This document shows positions 2,339 to 32,152 of a stretch of 32,163 nt of DNA, in pieces. A model generated the notes under the pieces. That model was given only the letters and a program-made list of their open reading frames with translations. It was not told the DNA's origin and did not search any database. Location of the stretch: NCBI GenBank assembly GCA_020445765.1, contig JAGRFY010000042.1:1-32163 (forward strand), in the 5' to 3' direction. The position numbers and the translations under genes were made by a program. The stretch comes from Rhodocyclaceae bacterium. Its GTDB lineage: Bacteria; Pseudomonadota; Gammaproteobacteria; Burkholderiales; Rhodocyclaceae. Every line of letters begins with the position of its first letter. Position 1 is the stretch's first letter.

Positions 2339-2806
2339 CTACTGTCCGGTGAAGCGGATCTCCCCTCCCGGCAGCAGATAGAGCACATGGGCCTTGCCGC
2401 CGGCGACGGTCGGCCGGTGGGCACTGCCGGGTCCGTAGACGAACCAGCCGGCGCCGGCGCCGTCGAAGCGGGCATCTGCGTCGATCGGCATGACCATGTC
2501 GACTTCGCCGCGGGGATGCTCGTGATGGGGGCCGACGACGTCGCCCATCTCGACGACATCGATCGAAAAGCCGTGCAGCGCAGGGCCCGGCTTGGCGACG
2601 CGCCCGAAACGAATGCCACCCTGCTCGTGCCGGCACATCCAGCCTTCGGCCACGCCTTCGCGACAGGCCGCGGCGATGCGCTGGAAGACCTCGCCGTCGG
2701 CCGGGAAGCGCCGATTGAGTTCGGCCTCCAGTTGCTTGTCCACGGCCATGCCGTCGATTGCGCCGGTCACTTGCGAGACCAGGGCGACGAAGTTCTCAAC
2801 GCTCAT
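2339..2806 (-). CDS. DUF4863 / 4-hydroxylaminobenzoate lyase (PnbB)-like protein
   Basis: A 155-aa soluble protein. Its C-terminal half looks like a small cupin-type metal site: GPHHEHPRGEVDMVMP (about 92-107) supplies two or three His and a Glu, and a later GSAHRPTVAGGKAHVLYLLPGGE segment supplies more His. This pattern and length resemble the DUF4863 family, whose characterised member is the 4-hydroxylaminobenzoate lyase PnbB of nitrobenzoate degraders; this is recalled family knowledge, not a search result. The ATG at 2806 has GGAGAGCGGAG upstream. It lies between boxD (17-bp gap) and bclA (52-bp gap), so it is co-transcribed with benzoate genes. No nitroreductase is visible here, so the lyase function is doubtful. 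A step after BoxD, or removal of a side product, is possible. Confidence 0.7.
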   Translation of the reverse strand: MSVENFVALVSQVTGAIDGMAVDKQLEAELNRRFPADGEVFQRIAAACREGVAEGWMCRHEQGGIRFGRVAKPGPALHGFSIDVVEMGDVVGPHHEHPRGEVDMVMPIDADARFDGAGAGWFVYGPGSAHRPTVAGGKAHVLYLLPGGEIRFTGQ

Positions 2807-2823
2807 CTCCGCTCTCCTTGAAG

Positions 2824-4401
2824 TCATGCCCACATCAACGCGGCGTCGGCGCAGCCGGCGGCCAGCGACGCGATCCGCTCCGGCGAGCCCTGCACGACAT
2901 GGCGCCGCAGATACAGGCCCAGCGCCCTGAGCCCGCCCAGTTCCTCTCCGCCTCCAGCCCGACCAGGACCGCCATGCAGGCAACCCGGCATGACGTTGCC
3001 ATGACCGGTATGAGCATTGCCGACGGTGGCGTCGACCAGCATCAAGCGGCCATGCAGATCGCCCACCGCCGACACCAGTCGGTCTGTAAACACGCCATCC
3101 GACGAATAGACCGACGCGACCAGGGAACCCTCGCCGCGGCGCATCATGCGCGCCAGTGCGCGCTCGTCGGCATAGGGGATCACCGTCGCCGCCGGGCCGA
3201 AGACCTCGACCCGATGTACGGTTTCGGCGCGCTCGCCATCGCTGCAGAACAGCAAGGTCGGTTGCACGAAGGCCGACACTGCGGCATCGGCACCGACCGG
3301 CGCGAAGCCTTCGCCGCCACCGAAGGCGAGCTCGCACTCGCTGCGCAGCTCGGCGATGCCGGCGATCGCCGCCTGCTGCTGCGCACGGCTGACCAGCGGG
3401 CCCATGCGCACCCCGTCCACGGCGGGATCGCCGACGACGACGCGTGCCAGACGGGTCGCCACCGCATCGGCCAGCGCGCGGGCCTGGGCCATCGGCGCGA
3501 ATACGCGGCGAATCGCCGTGCACTTCTGACCACTCTTGATCGTCATCTCGCGGACGATCTCCTTCACCGCCAGCTCGAACTCGACGCTGTCGGGCAGCGC
3601 ATCGGGACCGAGCACGGCGGCATTGACGCTGTCGGCCTCGACGTTGACGCGGACCGCGTGCTCGACGATGCCCGGATGGCTGCGAATCCGGCGGGCCGTA
3701 TCGGCCGAACCGGTAAAGGAAACGACATCGCCTTCGCGCACGTGCGTCAGCAGGTCGCGGGCAGCGCCGCACACGATCGAAAGCGCACCGGGCGGCAGGA
3801 TGCCGGCCGCGATCACGTCGGCCACCATGCGCTGGGCGAGCCAGGCAGTCGGCGTCGCCGGCTTCACCAGCACAGGCATGCCGGCCAGCAGCGCGGGCGC
3901 CGCCTTCTCCCACAGGCCCCAGGCCGGAAAGTTGAAAGCGTTGATGAAGATCGCGACGCCCTTCTGCGGCACCAGGAAGTGCCGACCGACGAAGTTGCCC
4001 TCCTTCGACAGCGGCACCACGGCACCTTCGACCAGTCCACGAGTCTGGCCGAGCGCCTTGCCCAAGCGGGCGTAGCTCTTCAGCGTGAAGATCGCGCCGT
4101 CGACGTCGAATCCGGCATCGGCCTCGGTCGCACCCGCGTTCCTGCGGGAGATGTCGAAGTAGTCGGCACGGTTTTGAGCGAGCACGTCTGCGATCGCGGC
4201 CAGCATCGACGCCCGGTCGGCATGGCTCGCGGCGCGCAGCGATTCGCCTCCGGTCAGCCGCGCATGCGCCAGCGCCTGGGCGCAGTCCACGCCGTCGGAG
4301 CCGACCCGAACCAGGGCTTCGCCGGAGACCGGATCGAGCAGCGCAATGCCCTCACCTTCGCATTCGAACCAGCGATCACATACGTAATTGGGCAGATGCA
4401 T
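2824..4401 (-). CDS. boxD: 3,4-dehydroadipyl-CoA semialdehyde dehydrogenase (BoxD)
   Basis: A 525-aa aldehyde dehydrogenase that oxidises the CoA-bound semialdehyde released by BoxC to cis-3,4-dehydroadipyl-CoA, using NADP+ in characterised homologues. From the ATG at 4401 the key residues are N157 (NAFNFPAWG), K180 (VLVKPATPTA), E255 (VNVEADSVN) and the nucleophile C294 (SGQKCTAIRR). These match the BoxD/PaaZ-type ALDH group, where the catalytic pair is near 257 and 296. A 24-codon longer frame exists, but the ATG at 4401 has GGGAGA about 10 nt upstream and gives the family length. It is the first gene of the leftward box operon, with its own strong promoter at 4488-4515 and an untranslated leader of about 80 nt. 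Confidence 0.93.
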   Translation of the reverse strand: MHLPNYVCDRWFECEGEGIALLDPVSGEALVRVGSDGVDCAQALAHARLTGGESLRAASHADRASMLAAIADVLAQNRADYFDISRRNAGATEADAGFDVDGAIFTLKSYARLGKALGQTRGLVEGAVVPLSKEGNFVGRHFLVPQKGVAIFINAFNFPAWGLWEKAAPALLAGMPVLVKPATPTAWLAQRMVADVIAAGILPPGALSIVCGAARDLLTHVREGDVVSFTGSADTARRIRSHPGIVEHAVRVNVEADSVNAAVLGPDALPDSVEFELAVKEIVREMTIKSGQKCTAIRRVFAPMAQARALADAVATRLARVVVGDPAVDGVRMGPLVSRAQQQAAIAGIAELRSECELAFGGGEGFAPVGADAAVSAFVQPTLLFCSDGERAETVHRVEVFGPAATVIPYADERALARMMRRGEGSLVASVYSSDGVFTDRLVSAVGDLHGRLMLVDATVGNAHTGHGNVMPGCLHGGPGRAGGGEELGGLRALGLYLRRHVVQGSPERIASLAAGCADAALMWA

Positions 4402-20526: not shown

Positions 20527-21438
20527 TCACTTGGTGCGGCGCATCTCGCCGCTGCTCCGATTGACGATCCATTCCCAGTCGAACTGCCAGCCACAGTGGG
20601 AAATGGCAATGCTGTGGCGTGCGGTCTCGCCATGGGGCTTGCCATCACGGAGCAATTGCACGTTCAGCGAACTACCGAAGCAGTTGCCGTTGCCGAGGCG
20701 CACATTCACGCGATCGTCGCCACCGGTCAGGTAGGGCGTCAGGTCAAACGTCGCCTGCCCGCCGGACTTGCTGAAACGCTCGATGGCGTTGATCTCGACG
20801 TGCACGTCGTCGTCGATGTTCGAGGCGACCAATTGCCAGCGATAGCCATGGATCGCCGGCGGTTTCGGCGCCGGCGATTGCGCGCTGGACGACATCGCCC
20901 CCTGCTCCGGCTTGTCCGGTCCACCCGGCTGGCGCACGAACAGGCCATAGGCCAGGGCGGCCAGCGCAACCGGCAGCGCGACCATCACGGGCCAACGTCG
21001 CCTCGCGCGCTCGGGACGTGGCGGCGGAGCCACCACCGGCGAAGACGCCGGCACCGCGCGATGTCGCATCGCCTGCAGCAACTGCGTCAGTCCGGGATGA
21101 TCGGCGGCGCCGTTCCACTCCGCCAGCGACACCGTCTGCTTGCGGCGGAACTCCAATGGCGGCCGCTGGCCATCGATCGAGACCGGGATCAGCACGCCCC
21201 GCTCGGCCGCCGTCGACGCCTCGCTGCGCACCCATTCCGAACCGACCGACGCCGCCGACCACAGAACGATGACGCTGCCTGCGCTGTCGAGTTCGCGCTC
21301 GATGACCTCGTCGAAGGTATGCCCGGCAACGATGTGCCGGTCCCACCAGACCGTGAGCCCTTTCGCCTCCAGCGCGCGAGCTAGGGATTCCGCCATCGCC
21401 TGGTCTTCCCTCGCATAGCTCAGGAACACGTCGCTCAC
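20527..21438 (-). CDS. TIR-domain membrane protein with a C-terminal extracytoplasmic domain
   Basis: A 303-aa protein. Residues 1-125 form a TIR domain: box 1 DVFLSYAREDQ near the start, then KGLTVWWDRHIVAGHTFDEV, and SVIVLWSAASVGSEWVRSEAS with E73 in the position of the catalytic glutamate of NAD-cleaving TIR domains. A Pro-rich linker leads to one transmembrane helix (about 149-168). A Pro/Ser-rich spacer is followed by a C-terminal domain (about 198-293) with two Cys (C253, C282) that may pair outside the cytoplasm. The GTG at 21438 is preferred over the GTG at 21444 because GGGGAG lies 6 nt before the former and abuts the latter. The neighbours are a lectin-like protein and an MFS exporter; no defence partners are visible. 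A signalling or self-toxic NADase function is inferred only from the family. Confidence 0.78.
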   Translation of the reverse strand: MSDVFLSYAREDQAMAESLARALEAKGLTVWWDRHIVAGHTFDEVIERELDSAGSVIVLWSAASVGSEWVRSEASTAAERGVLIPVSIDGQRPPLEFRRKQTVSLAEWNGAADHPGLTQLLQAMRHRAVPASSPVVAPPPRPERARRRWPVMVALPVALAALAYGLFVRQPGGPDKPEQGAMSSSAQSPAPKPPAIHGYRWQLVASNIDDDVHVEINAIERFSKSGGQATFDLTPYLTGGDDRVNVRLGNGNCFGSSLNVQLLRDGKPHGETARHSIAISHCGWQFDWEWIVNRSSGEMRRTK

Positions 21439-21499
21439 GCACACCTCCCCGCAGGCGGCAGACTTGGTCGAATCCGCATTGTCGCATCGCTGGCAGCAC

Positions 21500-24622: not shown

Positions 24623-25897
24623 TCAGCCGAGGGTCAGGCCCGGCAGCCAGGTGGAAAGGGCGGGCACGGCCGCGATCAGGACGATGCACAGCAGCACCGC
24701 CACCAGGAACGGCACGGTGGCGCGAAACAGCGGCCCCATCCGGATGTCCGCGGCCACCATCGCGATGTAGAGGCCGGGACCGACCGGCGGCGTCACCAGC
24801 CCCATCACCGTGGCCACCGTGCACACCACGCCGAAGTGGATCGGATCGATGCCGAGCGACGTCACCACCGGCATCAGCAGTGGCACGACGACGATCAGCA
24901 CGCTGATGCTCTCGAGGAACATGCCGAGCACCATCAGCGCCAAGATCACCAGCAGCAGGAAGACGAAGGGCGAATCGGTCAGGCCGGACATCAAGGCCAC
25001 CAGTTCGTCGGGCACGCCCTGGAAGGCCAACGCCCAGCTCAGCACCGAGGCCGCCGCGATCAGGCCGGTGATGGTGGCGGTGCCGAGGGCCACGGTCAGC
25101 AGGATCGGTCCGAGATCCGCGAGTCGCAGCTCGCGGTAGGCAAAGCCCAGCACCAGCGCGATGATCGACGCCACCGCGCCGGATTCGGTCGGTGTCATGA
25201 CGCCGGCCATGATGCCGACGATCACCACCAGCGGAATCAGCGCCGGCGCCAGGCCTTCGAACAGAATCCGGCTGCGCGGCCCGAGGTCGTGGCCGACGCC
25301 GGACGGCAGGCCCTTGCCCAGCAGGCTGGTCAGCAGGATCACGATGCCGAGGGCGCCGATGATCAGCACGCCCGGCAACACGCCGGCGATGAACAAGGGC
25401 GCGATCGGCTGCACCGCGACGACACCATAGATGATCATCAGCATCGACGGCGGGATGATCGGCCCCAGCAATCCGGCCGACACCGTGACCGCGCCGGAGA
25501 ACGCTCGGTCGTAGCCCTTGCGCTCCATTTCCGGAATCATCACCTTGCTCATCACGCCGATCTGGGCCACCGCCGAACCGAGGATCGACGCCGCCATCGC
25601 ATTGGTGACCAGGTTGGCGTAGGCGAGGCCGCCGGTCATGCGGCCCACCAGCACCTCGGCCACCGCCACCAGCCGCGAGGTCAGGCCGGCCTTGTTCATG
25701 ATCTCGCCGACCAGCAGGAACAGCGGGATCGCCAGCAGGCCGTTGATCTCGAGCGAACCGAAGAACTGGATCGGGATCGAGTCGTACAGCACGGCCAGAT
25801 CGTTGGTCTGCAGGAAGACGATGGCGCCGGCGAGGATCACGCCGAAGATCGGCAGCCCCGCGAACAGCAGCAGGAAGAAGGTCAGCAGCGCGGTCAT
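24623..25897 (-). CDS. dctM: TRAP transporter large permease (DctM)
   Basis: A 424-aa inner-membrane protein with about 12 hydrophobic segments. It shows DctM family marks: LFAGLPIFGVILAGA at the N-terminus, IPLFLLVGEIMNKAG, GLLGPIIPPSMLMIIYG, and a C-terminal GLVTPPVGPGLYI. It is the ion-coupled channel subunit that works with DctQ and DctP for organic-acid uptake. The ATG at 25897 overlaps the dctQ stop by 4 bp (ATGA), showing tight coupling. The hemerythrin gene follows 23 bp later. The substrate is probably 3-hydroxybenzoate or gentisate from the operon context. Confidence 0.95.
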   Translation of the reverse strand: MTALLTFFLLLFAGLPIFGVILAGAIVFLQTNDLAVLYDSIPIQFFGSLEINGLLAIPLFLLVGEIMNKAGLTSRLVAVAEVLVGRMTGGLAYANLVTNAMAASILGSAVAQIGVMSKVMIPEMERKGYDRAFSGAVTVSAGLLGPIIPPSMLMIIYGVVAVQPIAPLFIAGVLPGVLIIGALGIVILLTSLLGKGLPSGVGHDLGPRSRILFEGLAPALIPLVVIVGIMAGVMTPTESGAVASIIALVLGFAYRELRLADLGPILLTVALGTATITGLIAAASVLSWALAFQGVPDELVALMSGLTDSPFVFLLLVILALMVLGMFLESISVLIVVVPLLMPVVTSLGIDPIHFGVVCTVATVMGLVTPPVGPGLYIAMVAADIRMGPLFRATVPFLVAVLLCIVLIAAVPALSTWLPGLTLG

Positions 25898-26397
25898 GAG
25901 CGCACTCCGGCGAAGGCCGCCAGATGGCGCAGCAGTGCCGCGCCCTGGTGGCAGGCCATCGTCGTCGCCGCCGCCGGCAGCACCGCGTAGCTGTACCAGC
26001 GCGGCAGCTGGGTGGTGGCGGAGAGCTCGATGCGTACGTCCGGCTGAGCGATCCAGGTCCAGGAAAGCCAGGCGACGAACACCAGGATTGCGAACATCAC
26101 CAACCCGAGCGCGGCAAACAAGGCGTGCCGCTTGCGCTCGGGCAGCGCCCGTGGCAGGAAGTCGATGCTGACCAGTTCGTTGGCGCGGGTCAGCAACGAG
26201 AGCCCGAACAGGCTGGTGAATACCAGGAGCTGCACCGAGATCTCCTCGGCCCAGAAGATCGGTGAGCTGAAGAAATAGCGCAGCACCACCTGGGCCATCA
26301 TGATGCAGGCGATGGCCGCCGTGAGCGCGATCACGAGCACGCGCTCGAGCGCCGCCAGACCGTCGTCGGCGCGCTGGACAATCGACAGGATGCCCAT
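25894..26397 (-). CDS. dctQ: TRAP transporter small permease (DctQ)
   Basis: A 167-aa protein with four hydrophobic helices and the DctQ signature region FFSSPIFWAEEISVQLLVF (about 51-69), where the WAEE motif follows helix 2. It forms the membrane complex with DctM. The ATG at 26397 follows a strong GGAGGAGGA. The gap of 76 bp after dctP carries a hairpin, a common arrangement that lets the binding protein be made in excess. Confidence 0.93.
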   Translation of the reverse strand: MGILSIVQRADDGLAALERVLVIALTAAIACIMMAQVVLRYFFSSPIFWAEEISVQLLVFTSLFGLSLLTRANELVSIDFLPRALPERKRHALFAALGLVMFAILVFVAWLSWTWIAQPDVRIELSATTQLPRWYSYAVLPAAATTMACHQGAALLRHLAAFAGVRS

Positions 26398-26432
26398 CCC
26401 GAGGTCCTCCTCCGTAGGGGGTGGGTGGCCGC

Positions 26433-26453
26433 GGACCGATCCGTGGTCGGTCC
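26433..26453. other. Hairpin between dctP and dctQ
   Basis: A perfect 7-bp stem (GGACCGA 26433-26439, TCGGTCC 26447-26453) with 7-nt loop and no T-run. It lies directly after the dctP stop. It fits partial attenuation or message protection favouring dctP over the permeases. Confidence 0.45.
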
Positions 26454-26473
26454 GGGCGCGGACTGGGGTCGGC

Positions 26474-27448
26474 TTACAGGTCTTTCGCCTGCTGGTAGAA
26501 GGTGCCGATCAGCGGATTGCGCGCGGTGTAGGCGTCGCGCACGCCCTGGGCCACGGCGCGGAAGGCCTCGGCGTCGAAGTCGATGATCTTGGTGCCGTCG
26601 GCGCGGGCCTTCTCGAGATTGGCGGTCTCGGCGTCGATCGCAGCCTGGACGCCCCACCGCTCGGCCTCGGCAACCACCTTGCGCACGGTCTCGCGCTCGG
26701 CGTCCGAGAGCTTCGACCACCAGGCCTTCGACACCGCGATGACGCCCGGGAAGGCCATGTGGTTGGTCAGCGTCAGGTTCTCGGCCTGCTGGTAGAACTT
26801 GAGGCCGACCAGGGCGTCGAGGTCGATGTCGACCGCATCGAGCAGCTTGGTGGTCAGCGACGGCGCGATCTCGGACAACGGCATCGCCGTCGGCGCAGCG
26901 CCGATCGCCAGCCACCAGTCGTTGTAGATCGGGCTCGGAAAGGCACGGATTTTCTTGCCGGCGAGATCGGCAGGCGAGCTCACCGGTGCCAGCGACAGCA
27001 CGTGGCGCATGCCGGCGAAGACGTAGCCGAGACCGACCAGTCCGCTGGCGTCGAGGCGGGCCAGCATCTCGCGCGCGGCCGGGGTGGCGGCGGCACGGGC
27101 GGCATGGGCGACGTCCTTGAAGACGTAGGGCAGCGACCAGCCGAGCAGCGACTCCTCGCGGTTGGCCAGCCCGCCGGCGGTGAAGATCGCGAACTGCACC
27201 GCGCCTGGTCGCATCAGGTTGATCACCTGGTCTTCCTTGCCGAGCTTCCTTAGCGGGCTGACGGCAATCGTCATCTTGCCGCCGGTGGCCTGGTCGAGAT
27301 CGGTCGCGATCTTTTCGGCGACCTTGTGCCAGACGTGGGTCGGCGGCGTGATGTGGGCGAACTTGAGCGGTGCGGCGGCGGCGATGGTGGCACCGGCGGC
27401 CAGCGCCAGCGCGCCGACGAGCTTCAGACTGCGGGTGAGTGCGTTCAT
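26474..27448 (-). CDS. dctP: TRAP transporter substrate-binding protein (DctP)
   Basis: A 324-aa periplasmic binding protein with a signal peptide (MNALTRSLKLVGALALAAGA, ending IAAAA) and a mature start PLKFAHITPPTHVWHK, typical of DctP. The central DLAGKKIRAFPSPIYNDWW holds the conserved Arg of the carboxylate-binding site, followed by GAAPTAMPLSEIAPSL. The ATG at 27448 follows AGGAGA. The gene starts 65 bp after the isomerase gene in the same direction and leads dctQM. The operon context suggests 3-hydroxybenzoate or a related aromatic carboxylate as ligand; the sequence alone does not prove it. Confidence 0.93.
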   Translation of the reverse strand: MNALTRSLKLVGALALAAGATIAAAAPLKFAHITPPTHVWHKVAEKIATDLDQATGGKMTIAVSPLRKLGKEDQVINLMRPGAVQFAIFTAGGLANREESLLGWSLPYVFKDVAHAARAAATPAAREMLARLDASGLVGLGYVFAGMRHVLSLAPVSSPADLAGKKIRAFPSPIYNDWWLAIGAAPTAMPLSEIAPSLTTKLLDAVDIDLDALVGLKFYQQAENLTLTNHMAFPGVIAVSKAWWSKLSDAERETVRKVVAEAERWGVQAAIDAETANLEKARADGTKIIDFDAEAFRAVAQGVRDAYTARNPLIGTFYQQAKDL

Positions 27449-27474
27449 TTGGGTCTCCTGTTGTCGTTCGGTTC

Positions 27475-27493
27475 GGCCGGCCTGGTGCCGGCC
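27475..27493. other. Hairpin between the isomerase gene and dctP
   Basis: A perfect 7-bp GC stem (GGCCGGC 27475-27481, GCCGGCC 27487-27493) with 5-nt loop lies in the 65-bp gap. No T-run follows, so transcription probably reads through. Confidence 0.4.
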
Positions 27494-27513
27494 TTGTCGT
27501 TTCTGCATGGTCG

Positions 27514-28155
27514 TCAGCCGGCGTCCGGCTGCTGTGCGGGTGCGGCGCGGCGGAAGGCGTCGAGCGCGCCGCAGGCGGCGTCGACCGCGGCGATGCGCGG
27601 CCAGCGCGACAGGTCCACCTGGAAGCGCCGCGCACTCTCGACCTGCGGCACCAGATAGACGTCGGCCAGGCCGGGCCGGCCACCGAAGCAGAATTCACCC
27701 CGGCGCCCGTCATCGGCCAGCATCGCCTCCAGCGCATCGAAACCGGCCGCGATCCAGGTGCCGCACCAGGCGTTGATCGCGGCTTCGTCGGCACCGAGGT
27801 AATGGCGCAGGTACTCGAGGATGCGGCGGTTGTTGATCGGGTGGATGTCGCAACCGACGATGGCGGCCATCGCCCGCACCCGCGCCCGCTCGTCCGGATC
27901 GTCCGGCAGCAGCGGCGGGGTGGGATGGCGTTCTTCGAGCCACTCGATGATTGCCGGCGACTGGATCAGCGGCAGGTCGCCATCGACCAGCACCGGCACC
28001 AGGCCCTGCGGGTTCAGCGCGCGGAACGCCTCGCCGAGATGCGCCTCGCGGCGCAGGTCGACGGCGACGTACTCGTAGGCCAGGCCCTTCAGCTCGAGCG
28101 CGATGCGCAAGCGGTGCGAGGTGCCGGAACGGAAGAAGTTGTAGAGCTTGAACAT
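27514..28155 (-). CDS. nagL: Maleylpyruvate isomerase (zeta-class glutathione transferase)
   Basis: A 213-aa protein that isomerises maleylpyruvate to fumarylpyruvate with glutathione, following gentisate ring cleavage. The N-terminal thioredoxin-like domain starts MFKLYNFFRSGTSHRLRIAL, with the zeta-class Ser motif near residues 10-13. It continues with LNPQGLVPVLVDGDLPLIQSPAIIEWLEERHP, which holds the glutathione-contact QSPAI segment. A helical C-terminal domain follows. The ATG at 28155 lies 12 bp after the hydroxylase stop. The family also contains maleylacetoacetate isomerases; the adjacent gentisate genes decide for maleylpyruvate. Confidence 0.92.
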   Translation of the reverse strand: MFKLYNFFRSGTSHRLRIALELKGLAYEYVAVDLRREAHLGEAFRALNPQGLVPVLVDGDLPLIQSPAIIEWLEERHPTPPLLPDDPDERARVRAMAAIVGCDIHPINNRRILEYLRHYLGADEAAINAWCGTWIAAGFDALEAMLADDGRRGEFCFGGRPGLADVYLVPQVESARRFQVDLSRWPRIAAVDAACGALDAFRRAAPAQQPDAG

Positions 28156-28167
28156 CGCCGCCGGCCT

Positions 28168-29361
28168 TCAGTGCTGCGCCAGGCAGTTGCCGACGTTCCA
28201 GCCGTACAGCCACTCCATCGCGTCGTAGAAGCGCTCCGGGCTGCGGCCGCGCCACAGGTCGTTGCGCACCAGGCGTTCGACCCCCTTGGCGTGGTAGATG
28301 CGGCCCATCTCCCGCGACGACAGCACGATGCGGGCGGTACGGGCGATGCGCGAGCGCTGGTAGAGGTCGAAGGCCGCTTCGAAATCGTTGTCCTTGACCC
28401 GCAGCGCCTCGCCCAGGGTCACCGCGTCCTCGAGCGCCATGCACGCGCCCTGCGCCATGTACTGGGTGGTCGGATGGGCGGCGTCGCCCAGCAGCGTGAC
28501 CCGGCCGAAGGTCCAGCGGTCGATCGGCTCCCGGTCGGCGGTGGCCCAGCGCTTCCAGCTCTTCGGCAGGTCGATCAACTGATGGGCCTTCGCGCAGATG
28601 CCCTGGAAGTAGCTCTGAACCTCCTCCTTGCTGCCATCCCGTACGCCCCACTCTTCCTGCTCGCGGCTATGGAAGGTCACCACCACGTTGTACTGCTCGC
28701 CGCCGCGCAGCGGGTAATGCACCAGGTGGCAGTTGGGTCCGACCCAGATGCTGGCCGCGTTCCACTGCAGCTCCTCGGGGAAGTCGGCCTTGTCCACCAC
28801 TGCGCGATACACCACGTGGCCGGTGACCCGCGCCGGATCGCCGACGAACTGCTCGCGCACCACCGACTTGACGCCATCGGCGCCGATCAGCGCACAGCCG
28901 CGGAAGGCCTTGCCGTTCTGGTCATAGACGGTGACGCCGTCGGCATCCTGCTCGATGCGCTCGACCCGGGTCGAGGTGTGGAACTCGACGCTGCCGGTCT
29001 CCTGGGCACCCTCGAGCAGCGACATATGGACGTCGACCCGATGGATCACTGCGTACGGGTTGCCGAAACGGCGGCGGAAGTTCTCGTCGGTCGGGATGCG
29101 GCCGACCTGGTATTCGTCGATCGCGTCGTGCATCACCATGTAGTCGGTGAATACCGCCCGGCTGCGGGCCTTGTCGCCGATGCCGAGGGCGTCGAAGGCG
29201 TGGAAGGCGTTGGGGCCGAGCTGGATGCCGGCACCGATCTCGCCGATCTCCGGTGCCTGCTCCAGCACCGTCACGGCAAAGCCACGTCGCACCAGGGCCA
29301 GCGCCGCCGCCAGTCCACCGATGCCGCCACCGGCAATCACCACGGGAAGTTTCTCGCTCAT
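28168..29361 (-). CDS. nagX: 3-hydroxybenzoate 6-hydroxylase (FAD monooxygenase)
   Basis: A 397-aa class A flavoprotein monooxygenase that converts 3-hydroxybenzoate to gentisate with NADH and O2. The FAD-binding GGGIGG is at 11-16, the DG motif at GADGVKS (160-166), and the GD motif at GDAAHPTTQYMAQGA (292-306). H212, Y216 and Q300 fall one position from the active-site His213, Tyr217 and Gln301 recalled for the Rhodococcus enzyme. The ATG at 29361 follows AGGAGAGAG. The neighbours are fumarylpyruvate hydrolase (54-bp gap) and isomerase (12-bp gap). A salicylate 5- or 1-hydroxylase is less likely given these residues. Confidence 0.9.
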   Translation of the reverse strand: MSEKLPVVIAGGGIGGLAAALALVRRGFAVTVLEQAPEIGEIGAGIQLGPNAFHAFDALGIGDKARSRAVFTDYMVMHDAIDEYQVGRIPTDENFRRRFGNPYAVIHRVDVHMSLLEGAQETGSVEFHTSTRVERIEQDADGVTVYDQNGKAFRGCALIGADGVKSVVREQFVGDPARVTGHVVYRAVVDKADFPEELQWNAASIWVGPNCHLVHYPLRGGEQYNVVVTFHSREQEEWGVRDGSKEEVQSYFQGICAKAHQLIDLPKSWKRWATADREPIDRWTFGRVTLLGDAAHPTTQYMAQGACMALEDAVTLGEALRVKDNDFEAAFDLYQRSRIARTARIVLSSREMGRIYHAKGVERLVRNDLWRGRSPERFYDAMEWLYGWNVGNCLAQH

Positions 29362-29415: not shown

Positions 29416-30123
29416 TCATTCGCGCTCGCCGATGGTCAGATGGACCTCGGCGACGCCGGCCACGCGGCCCACCAGGCGGTCGCCGCTGACCACCGGGCCG
29501 ACGCCTTCGGGGGTGCCGGTGTAGATCAGGTCGCCCGGCTGCAGGTGATAGAACCGCGACAGGTCAGCCAGCAGTTCGGGGATGTTCCAGATCAGCTTCG
29601 AGACGTCCGACGACTGCCGGGCCTCGCCATTGACCTCCAGCACGATCTCGCCGCTGTCGACCACCGGGCGGCCATTGGCCGGGACGATCGCCGAGCACAC
29701 CGCGCTGCGTTCGAAATCCTTGCCCAGGTCCCACGGCCGCCCCTGCTCGCGGGCCACCAGCTGCAGGTCGCGGCGGGTCATGTCGAGGCCGGCGGCGTAG
29801 CCGTAGATCAGGTCGGCGGCATCGGCCTCGGCGACCCGGAAGCCGGCCTTGCCGATCGCCACCACCAGTTCCATCTCGTAGTGGTAGTTCTCGGTGCCGG
29901 TCGGATACGGCACGGTCTCGCCGGAGGCCACCAGCGTCGACGGCGTCTTGGTGAAATAGAACGGGCGCATCGTCGCCTTGTCGACCGGCCGCGCCATCTC
30001 GACGGCATGGGCGTGGTAATTGCGACCGACGCAGAAGATGCGGCCGACCGGATAGCGGGTGTCGCTGCCGACCACCGCCAGCGACGGCACGGCGGCCGGT
30101 TGGAACAGGTATTTTTCGGTCAT
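29416..30123 (-). CDS. nagK: Fumarylpyruvate hydrolase
   Basis: A 235-aa fumarylacetoacetate-hydrolase-fold enzyme that splits fumarylpyruvate to fumarate and pyruvate, the final gentisate step. The metal-binding E-x-E...D set is E83, E85 (HYEMEL) and D114 (AGLDMT). FCVGRNYHAHAVEM near 30-43 is the family start, and YTGTPEGVGPV lies near the C-terminus. The ATG at 30123 has GGAGAG upstream; an 18-codon longer frame lacks family sequence. It lies 41 bp after the dioxygenase gene. Confidence 0.93.
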   Translation of the reverse strand: MTEKYLFQPAAVPSLAVVGSDTRYPVGRIFCVGRNYHAHAVEMARPVDKATMRPFYFTKTPSTLVASGETVPYPTGTENYHYEMELVVAIGKAGFRVAEADAADLIYGYAAGLDMTRRDLQLVAREQGRPWDLGKDFERSAVCSAIVPANGRPVVDSGEIVLEVNGEARQSSDVSKLIWNIPELLADLSRFYHLQPGDLIYTGTPEGVGPVVSGDRLVGRVAGVAEVHLTIGERE

Positions 30124-30164
30124 GGGTTGTCTCTCCAGGGATCGTTCGGGATTGGTGGCTGCGC

Positions 30165-31199
30165 TCAACCGCGGCACTCATAGACGCCGAGCTTCTTCTG
30201 CAGCGGCGCCTCGTCGGCGATGAAGACGAAGGAAGGTCCGTCGGCGCGGTTGATCAGCGTCACAGGTGCGTAGCCCGGCGCGCAGCAGGTGTCGGCCTCG
30301 GCCAGTTCGAAGGCGGTGCCCTCGACATCGACGCCGGCCGCACCCTCGATCAGGTGGAACACCATCGCCGGCGAGCGCACCGGCAGTCGCAGGGTCTCGC
30401 CCGGGCGCAGCATCAGCGCCGAGTAGCCAAGGATGTTCTGGCAGTCGTCGCCGGTCTCGGGATTGACGTAACTGACCTGCACCGGCCGCCCGGCCGGCGC
30501 GTCGGCAGCCTGGGCCTCGAGCGCGGCGCGTACCTCCTGCCACGGGTAGCGCAGCATCGGGTAGCGTCGGCCGCTGCGACTGAACATCGGCGTCGGCAGC
30601 ACGCCACCGCGGGCATAGGCACGCTCGGAAGCTTCGGCGGTGACGGTCTGCGCCTCACCTTCGGTGACGTAGGACGCCTCCATGTAATAGACGAGGGGCA
30701 GGTCGAGCACATCGAGCCACACCACCGGCGCCGTGCCGTCGTGGCCGTGCTCGTGCCACAGGCCGGTCGGCGTCAGGATCAGGTCGCCGCGGTTCATCGG
30801 GCACTTCTCGCCATCGACCGTGGTGTAGGCGCCCTCGCCCTCGACGATCATGCGCACCGCATTGGGCGTGTGGCGGTGGGCCGGCGCCCACTCGCCCGGC
30901 AGCAGCAATTGCATGCCGAGGTAGATGCTGGCGCTGGCCTGCATCTTCTCGAGTCCATGGCCAGGGTTGGCCAGCACCAGCACGCGCCGCTCCGCCTTCT
31001 CGATCGGGGTCAGCTCGCCGGCCTGCAGCAGCAGCGGCTTGAGGTCGGCATACGTCCATTGCGTCGGTCGCGTCTTCGACGCGGGACGACCGGGCGGCAG
31101 CACCGCGCGCAGGCTGGGCCACAATGGCACCAGGTTGCGTTCAGTCAGCGCCTCGCGATATGCCAGCGGCAAGTCTTCCAGGGTACCCAGGGTCTCCAT
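30165..31199 (-). CDS. gtdA: Gentisate 1,2-dioxygenase
   Basis: A 344-aa bicupin that cleaves gentisate between C1 and C2 with Fe(II) and O2, giving maleylpyruvate. The first cupin holds the metal site: H108 and H110 (PAHRHTPNAVRMIVEGEG) and a His in GLWHEHGHDG (149-153). The second cupin (about 250-330) is degenerate, as is usual in the family. The ATG at 31199 has an excellent GGAGGAG ribosome site 6-8 nt upstream; a longer frame through the promoter region is discarded. It is the first gene of the minus-strand operon, directly downstream of an FNR-type site and a LysR-type palindrome. Confidence 0.94.
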   Translation of the reverse strand: METLGTLEDLPLAYREALTERNLVPLWPSLRAVLPPGRPASKTRPTQWTYADLKPLLLQAGELTPIEKAERRVLVLANPGHGLEKMQASASIYLGMQLLLPGEWAPAHRHTPNAVRMIVEGEGAYTTVDGEKCPMNRGDLILTPTGLWHEHGHDGTAPVVWLDVLDLPLVYYMEASYVTEGEAQTVTAEASERAYARGGVLPTPMFSRSGRRYPMLRYPWQEVRAALEAQAADAPAGRPVQVSYVNPETGDDCQNILGYSALMLRPGETLRLPVRSPAMVFHLIEGAAGVDVEGTAFELAEADTCCAPGYAPVTLINRADGPSFVFIADEAPLQKKLGVYECRG

Positions 31200-31242
31200 C
31201 GAATCTCCTCCTTCGCACCGCCACAAACAGGCCGGCTCGGTG

Positions 31243-31256
31243 TTGATCTGCATCAA
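31243..31256. promoter_or_regulatory. Perfect FNR/ANR-type site upstream of the gentisate operon
   Basis: TTGAT (31243-31247) and ATCAA (31252-31256) separated by 4 bp match the full FNR consensus TTGAT-N4-ATCAA. The centre lies 50 bp before the dioxygenase start codon and about 16 bp downstream of the predicted transcription start. In that position an FNR homologue would repress under anoxia. That suits an operon made of O2-consuming enzymes. Confidence 0.65.
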
Positions 31257-31271
31257 GGTTTTGGTGTGGCC

Positions 31272-31300
31272 AATGTACGAAACAGGGTTCATTCCAACTA
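31272..31300 (-). promoter_or_regulatory. Possible LysR-dependent promoter of the gentisate operon
   Basis: On the minus strand TACATT (31272-31277) could be a -10 box, with a poor -35 match TAGTTG (31295-31300) at 17-bp spacing. A weak -35 is expected for an activator-dependent promoter. This places the transcription start near 31265 and the palindrome at 31322-31339 at about -65, the usual LysR recognition position. Confidence 0.4.
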
Positions 31301-31321
31301 CCCATGAACTTGAATTACACT

Positions 31322-31339
31322 CATTCGAAATTTCGAATG
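31322..31339. promoter_or_regulatory. 18-bp perfect palindrome, candidate LysR operator
   Basis: CATTCGAAATTTCGAATG is perfectly self-complementary over 18 bp and contains T-N11-A spacings (for example T31324 and A31336). It lies in AT-rich DNA between the divergent regulator and gentisate operon, 9 bp before the chosen regulator start. It probably serves both activation of the operon and autorepression of the regulator. Confidence 0.65.
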
Positions 31340-31348
31340 TTTGCGACG

Positions 31349-32152
31349 ATGGAATCCTGTGATCTGCGCCTGCTGAAGATCTTCGAAGAGATCCACAAGA
31401 CCCGAAGCGTCACCCGCGCAGCGATCAACCTGGGCCTCGGTCAACCGGCCGTCAGCGTCGCCCTCGGCAAGCTGCGGCGCCACTACAACGACCCGCTGTT
31501 CGTGCGCACGTCGAACGGCATGGAGCCGTCGGCAGTCGGCGCCCAGGTGGCCGAACGCATCCACGACGCGATCGCCGCAATGGAACTCGCCCTTGGCCAC
31601 CAGGCGCGCTTCGATCCGGCCACCGCCCGGCGCAGCTTCTCGATCGCGATGACCGACATCAGTCAGCTCGTGCTGCTGCCGGCACTGCTCGAACGACTGC
31701 GCCGCCTCGGCCCGGGCATCGTCGTCGACGTCGACACCCTGTCGGCCGAGACCGCCCGCAAGCTCGAGACTGGCGACAGCGACCTGGCGCTCGGCTTCAT
31801 GCCGCAACTGGAAGCCGGCTTCTACCAGCAGGCGCTGTTCCGGCAGAACTACGTCTGCCTGGTCGGCAGCCGCCACCCGCGCGTCGGCGCCACGTTCGAC
31901 CGCAGCGACTTCGAGAGCGAGGAACACGCGGTGGTCACCACCTCCGGCACCGGCCACCTGATCGTCGACGCCGAGATCGCCCGCCAGCGCATCCGCCGCC
32001 GCGTCGCGCTACGCGTGCCCAACTTTCTCGGCGCGGTATCGGTAGTCGAGGCCACCGACCTGGTGGTCACGGTGCCGGTCCGCCTCGGCGAACTGATGGT
32101 CGCCCGCGGCCAGTGCCGCGCCCACCCGGTGCCGTTCGAACGTAAGCGGTAA
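31349..32152 (+). CDS. LysR-family regulator, probable activator of the gentisate operon, with short C-terminus
   Basis: A 267-aa regulator from the ATG at 31349. The N-terminal winged helix (ESCDLRLLKIFEEIHKTRSVTRAA, LGLGQPAVSVALGKLR) and a substrate-binding domain with RRSFSIAMTDISQLVLLPALLERL resemble the NahR/NagR/DntR group. This start aligns with family N-termini; the ATG at 31304 would place the palindrome inside the gene. No good ribosome site precedes any candidate. The protein ends at CRAHPVPFERKR, about 30-40 residues earlier than the usual 300, just where relatives continue into a conserved VKQHWH-type segment. Another frame reads NVSGKQS there, so a frameshift is possible. Divergent placement and shared control DNA support regulation of the gentisate genes. 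Confidence 0.82.
   Translation: MESCDLRLLKIFEEIHKTRSVTRAAINLGLGQPAVSVALGKLRRHYNDPLFVRTSNGMEPSAVGAQVAERIHDAIAAMELALGHQARFDPATARRSFSIAMTDISQLVLLPALLERLRRLGPGIVVDVDTLSAETARKLETGDSDLALGFMPQLEAGFYQQALFRQNYVCLVGSRHPRVGATFDRSDFESEEHAVVTTSGTGHLIVDAEIARQRIRRRVALRVPNFLGAVSVVEATDLVVTVPVRLGELMVARGQCRAHPVPFERKR

Follow-up and report, generated by a model that had tools for sequence, protein, structure and literature searches.

The window analyzed here is a 32,163-nucleotide stretch of a Rhodocyclaceae bacterium genome (assembly GCA_020445765.1, contig JAGRFY010000042.1), in which a run of minus-strand genes extends from 31199 to 24623. The first gene of this run (30165–31199) codes for a ring-cleaving enzyme resembling gentisate 1,2-dioxygenase (TIGR02272; E = 2.6e-74), which also matched the putative gentisate 1,2-dioxygenase of PDB entry 2d40 (E = 3e-61). 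Its TIGR02272 score of 250 bits lies below the curated cut-off of 442, and the assignment of its substrate therefore depends on the operon context. This context comprises a fumarylacetoacetate hydrolase family protein that is likely a fumarylpyruvate hydrolase by its neighbors (29416–30177, minus strand; PF01557, E = 1.3e-50), a 3-hydroxybenzoate 6-monooxygenase (28168–29361, minus strand; NF006021, 711 bits, above the cut-off of 459), and a member of the maleylacetoacetate isomerase family taken by context as a maleylpyruvate isomerase (27514–28155, minus strand; TIGR01262, 280 bits, above the cut-off of 171). The TRAP transporter genes DctP, DctQ, and DctM (24623–27508; PF03480, PF04290, PF06808) follow on the same strand after a gap of 5 nt. 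With the monooxygenase, dioxygenase, isomerase, and hydrolase all present together, the aerobic gentisate operon proposed in an earlier sequence-only reading of this DNA was recovered as a predicted 3-hydroxybenzoate/gentisate operon.

A divergent LysR-family regulator is encoded on the plus strand at 31349–32152 (Pfam HTH_1 and LysR_substrate, searched with the longer frame 31304–32152). Its start at 31349 is backed by tblastn, in which the alignments of 22 out of 24 loci extend from residue 1. The divergent LysR protein is likely the activator of the gentisate operon. LysR-type control of 3-hydroxybenzoate/gentisate genes is exemplified by MhbR of Klebsiella, which the present arrangement resembles, and we know of no FNR operator in LysR-activated gentisate operons of this kind. 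It was noted that the transporter placed after the aerobic gentisate genes is of the TRAP type; for Aromatoleum aromaticum EbN1, PMC9765128 associates a TRAP transporter with anoxic and an MFS transporter with oxic 3-hydroxybenzoate uptake. Elsewhere in the window, a minus-strand frame at 20527–21444 contains a TIR_2 domain (E = 6.6e-25) and possibly encodes a defense or signaling protein. The C-terminal part of another minus-strand frame (2339–3913) matches the 4-hydroxylaminobenzoate lyase PnbB (E = 7e-54); this frame adjoins an AMP-binding enzyme gene (700–2286), which a hemerythrin-domain frame (189–1190) overlaps.

A pattern scan of the window identified a perfect, palindromic match to TTGAT-N4-ATCAA, TTGATCTGCATCAA, at 31243–31256, in agreement with the full match first claimed from the letters alone. 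We annotate this element, which has no strand, as a predicted FNR-type operator on the grounds of its exact match and of its conserved placement in family loci. No second match occurs in the window, even when up to one mismatch is allowed. On the dioxygenase strand, it occupies positions −57 to −44 relative to the ATG at 31199, which is itself preceded by AAGGAGGAG at 31205–31213. The element also lies upstream of the divergent LysR gene, 92 nt from the LysR start codon. Shuffling of the window yielded a mean of 0.22 matches with at most one mismatch, and at least one match was encountered in 21 of 100 shuffles, so that a match at the level of the window is by itself only mildly unusual, while a perfect match is rarer.

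Across the whole genome (4.84 Mb, 210 contigs), six perfect copies of TTGAT-N4-ATCAA were counted, compared to none for the reversed pattern and none for TGATT-N4-AATCA, a palindrome of the same composition. The counts at one mismatch (103 compared to 10 for the reversed pattern) were left unused, since the rarity of the word TAG skews that control. As read from the frames and likely start codons, all six perfect copies are intergenic, with longer open frames overrunning some of them. The other perfect boxes (L002–L006) were inspected by eye. Four of them appear to precede, respectively, a class II aldolase/LysR pair, a cytochrome c gene near ccm genes, a PEP-CTERM protein gene, and an AAA ATPase gene, and one is located between genes near a contig end. 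The copy designated L003 adjoins genes that were judged by eye to be of the cytochrome c maturation, cytochrome c, and hemerythrin-like types, and a CRP/FNR-type gene is located nearby.

The promoter layout was then compared across 16 site-bearing loci, comprising 13 family loci (the 14 that have two mismatches or fewer, minus L029) together with L065, L074, and L087. In the window, a LysR-type palindrome, ATTCGAAATTTCGAAT, is located at 31323–31338 (no strand), and a predicted −10 hexamer of the gentisate operon promoter, TACATT, is found on the minus strand at 31272–31277, 45 nt after the palindrome. This gap between the palindrome and the −10-like hexamer was exactly 45 nt in all 16 loci, with a second hexamer also satisfying the spacing in three of them. 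The palindrome (ATTC-N7/8-GAAT) itself contained no mismatch in 15 of the 16 loci and a single mismatch in L017. Such a fixed spacing places the center of the palindrome at approximately −65, with the transcription start predicted near 31265; a position near −65 is the usual one for LysR binding. A scan with the sigma-70 consensus found no promoter at the leader, a result that fits an activator-dependent promoter without constituting proof of one.

Relative to this predicted start, the FNR-type site would occupy approximately +10 to +23, and hence the region between the start and the start codon, as the sequence-only reading had placed it. The FNR-like site was downstream of the inferred start in every one of the 16 loci, beginning 15, 19, 21, 22, 28, 29, or 30 nt past the −10 hexamer. 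The combination of a fixed gap between palindrome and −10 hexamer with a sliding gap of 15–30 nt between the hexamer and the site is expected of steric repression and not of contact-dependent activation. Activation of the dioxygenase promoter from a site at −41.5 was also considered and is disfavored, as it would place the start at the ribosome-binding site.

We assessed the conservation of the site among relatives through a family search that read 199 genomes. A match was present in 41 of these, and loci were obtained from 30; the family set leaves out the remaining 11 matching genomes as well as another full-length copy in G192. In the zone starting 41–75 bases before the start codon, a perfect site was found in five of the 30 loci, a site with at most one mismatch in 10, and a site with at most two mismatches in 14. 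Dinucleotide shuffles (300 rounds) gave means of 0.003, 0.10, and 1.04 and maxima of 1, 2, and 4, respectively, counts that overstate independence because related sequences have common ancestry. Among the 14 site-bearing loci, pairwise identity reached 84% in the half-sites and 58% in the spacer, compared to 30% and 28% in the 14-base flanks, and the conservation of half-sites within an unconserved leader thus indicates more than shared ancestry of the leader. At the level of sequence, the presence of a putative FNR-type operator beyond chance was confirmed, with its positional conservation in relatives as the decisive evidence.

A full divergent LysR gene was present in 24 of the 30 loci, and all 14 site-bearing loci were among these (none of the remaining six). 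At more than two mismatches, the site was absent from 16 of the 30 family loci; it was missing from 10 of the 24 LysR-divergent loci, including those of Azoarcus indigens and strain TTM-91, and is therefore not essential. A set of named loci (the best 80 of 574 confirmed relatives), which overlaps the family set and is thus not independent of it, was split by name, with L051 counted among the first group. In the 18 loci related to Azoarcus, Aromatoleum, Thauera, or Zoogloeaceae, at most one mismatch was found in seven and at most two in 13, while among the remaining 62, none had at most one mismatch and five had two. The gentisate operon of A. aromaticum EbN1 (L030) carries a perfect site.

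Two variant forms of the element were also observed. Four of the five loci just mentioned, from three Pseudogulbenkiania and one Aquitalea (L064, L068, L079, L116), possess TTGAG-N4-ATCAG-like elements upstream of the dioxygenase gene, roughly as far from the start codon as the FNR-type site is; these are possibly an older form of the site or one of different specificity. Six Aromatoleum/Azoarcus loci (L072, L074, L081, L082, L085, L096) have two mismatches within one half-site (TTGATCTGGCGCAA and similar), and a loss of FNR control in these loci is possible.

The availability of a regulator for this site was examined within the same genome. An FNR homologue scored 252 bits against NF008365 (above the cut-off of 228). 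Its residues C15, C18, C24, and C117 align with cysteines of the solved FNR-type regulator 9qll, with 5cvr scoring equally, and its recognition helix reads LETVSR (E-SR type). The genome thus encodes a canonical four-cysteine FNR. An FNR homologue was found in all 30 family genomes, with best matches that were 67–100% identical and an in-frame stop in the copy of G183. The genome also encodes several further CRP/FNR-type proteins, among them the paralogues L135, L136, and L139 with PETLSR or PETFSR helices.

These paralogues raise the question of which protein would occupy the site. If a DNR/NNR-type paralogue, which senses NO and lacks an iron-sulfur cluster, were to bind, denitrification intermediates and not the lack of oxygen would shut the operon. 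DNR and FNR sites overlap in sequence, and two of the three paralogues (L135 and L136) adjoin nir genes on contig C63. Speaking weakly against such an assignment, an FNR homologue is found in all of the family genomes, and within the 1.2 kb preceding the NirS match, the sole element with at most two mismatches is TTGACTCTCGTCAA (607 bases upstream of the match, L141), which departs from the FNR consensus at two half-site positions, a hint that the boxes for FNR and for DNR may not be the same in this genome. The 1.1 kb that surrounds and precedes the start of the NosZ match (L140) of this genome contained no element with at most two mismatches; canonical boxes at the denitrification genes are therefore unconfirmed, a point against the FNR reading. 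On balance, we regard control by a DNR/NNR-type protein as rather unlikely.

The location of the site between two divergent genes also permits a reading in which FNR activates the LysR gene, so that anoxia would raise the level of the regulator rather than block the operon. The site does lie upstream of the LysR gene, and FNR often acts as an activator (PMC7713065). However, the distance between site and palindrome ranges from 66 to 81 bp, unlike the fixed spacings of activators; the helical phase of these distances (mean resultant length 0.45, 13 values) is not clearly spread over the turn, so this phase test is not decisive. By eye, no convincing LysR −10 hexamer was seen at the distance required by a −41.5 site. 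We consider activation of the LysR gene improbable.

Equally improbable, in our judgment, is that oxygen acts on the operon only through the inducer, in which case gentisate, if it is the LysR effector, would need oxygen and the FNR-like site would be a relic or of minor importance. The 10 LysR-divergent loci that lack the site are in line with this reading, as is the better preservation of the LysR palindrome compared to the FNR-like site among site-bearing loci, but half-sites conserved within an otherwise unconserved leader are not expected of a relic. Finally, an mRNA hairpin or a chance repeat is very improbable: although a 5-bp stem with a 4-nt loop can be drawn and three of its pairs appear in the centroid fold of the window leader (not in the minimum-energy fold), the hairpin is absent from the minimum-energy fold in four of four leaders folded (energies ordinary, z −0.5 to 0.8), pairing is disrupted at one position or more in nine of the 11 copies (among the 16) that are imperfect and is kept as G-U in two (L017, L031), with none compensated on both sides, and chance is disfavored by the shuffle counts in family loci and by half-site conservation.

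We next considered the metabolic setting in which an FNR operator would function. The genome contains a NirS-like match to the cd1-type nitrite reductase model (PF02239, 513 bits) and a NosZ-like match of 487 bits, which is below the cut-off of 625 of the single NosZ model used. Matches for both nitrite and nitrous oxide reductases were thus obtained, consistent with the facultative denitrifier that had been supposed. A NirS-scoring match (>480 bits) was present in 25 of the 30 family genomes. NirS was rejected as a predictor of site retention: eight of the 10 genomes with at most one mismatch possess it, the two without it being G194 (80% complete) and G086, and G130 and G161 carry NirS but no site.

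It had also been suggested that the site allows the cell to switch directly between routes of aromatic breakdown that depend on O2 and routes that do not. In this genome (94% complete), a search for subunit B of class I benzoyl-CoA reductase (TIGR02260) gave no match, which leaves a switch to anaerobic breakdown of aromatics unsupported here. The same search matched in 11 of the 30 family genomes, with two above the cut-off. Among the 10 genomes whose site has at most one mismatch, four gave a match and six gave none, and a link of the site to an anaerobic aromatic pathway is disfavored, as the site does not track this subunit. Of the original interpretation, the anoxic repression predicted for the operon fits the geometry described above, while the toggle between two aromatic pathways was not upheld.

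Several known systems resemble parts of this arrangement. In Azoarcus sp. CIB, the bzd promoter (PN) is activated by AcpR, a member of the FNR family, from a site centered at −41.5; FNR of E. coli likewise binds this promoter and activates it (PMC6678401). That system shares with the present one an FNR-family protein and site, oxygen control of aromatic catabolism, and the same bacterial group; it differs in that an anaerobic pathway is activated there from −41.5, whereas here an aerobic pathway is proposed to be repressed from a downstream site. The nearest precedent was found in Sphingopyxis granuli TFA, where an FNR site (SGRAN_1582) is proposed to shut aerobic degradation without oxygen, an idea that is the speculation of its authors (PMC7713065). 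The TFA site (center −29.5) overlaps a promoter that serves a regulator gene transcribed away from the operon, whereas here it is the leader of the catabolic operon that contains the site.

In EbN1, whose gentisate operon has the perfect site noted above, the same motif and regulator class are present. The FNR motifs given in the main text of PMC9765128 (narK, narH, nirS, norBC, nosZ, nosR) are respiratory only, and the gentisate operon is unlisted there. The same source describes separate anaerobic and aerobic 3-hydroxybenzoate routes, with the aerobic module forming its own transcript component. This is in accord with expression under oxic conditions alone, although it is no demonstration of it. 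The open-licence literature searched yielded no description of a gentisate operon with an FNR site, and FNR was not mentioned in passages of PMC6449761 or, by term search, in PMC5874301. FNR repression is already established as a mechanism, and the gentisate operon would appear to be a new target.

Taken as an operator for the [4Fe-4S] oxygen sensor FNR, the site may function as follows. With oxygen present, FNR would be inactive, and LysR bound at the palindrome would drive the operon when inducer is available. When oxygen is absent, FNR would dimerize, bind at the predicted downstream position, and block initiation or early elongation, and the cell would be spared making a monooxygenase and a dioxygenase that are unable to work without oxygen. 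We infer that FNR, by binding this site, probably represses the aerobic gentisate operon in the absence of oxygen. As the site is kept at the same promoter position in many relatives, the operon is probably off when oxygen runs out, in what looks like an anoxic off-switch for an aerobic pathway and not a toggle between two aromatic pathways.

We would give an even chance to a broader proposal, in which the aerobic gentisate operon is directly repressed by an FNR roadblock close to the promoter throughout the lineage of Azoarcus, Aromatoleum, and Thauera, with a degenerate form in Pseudogulbenkiania and Aquitalea. Such a roadblock would be independent of any anaerobic aromatic pathway, would tolerate 15 bp of sliding, and would help account for the aerobic 3-hydroxybenzoate component of EbN1. 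If true, an aerobic aromatic operon that is repressed directly would form an exception to the relaxed regulatory stringency reported for EbN1 (PMC9765128), and it would mean that a ring-cleaving operon is under direct oxygen control in pollutant degraders at oxic-anoxic boundaries.
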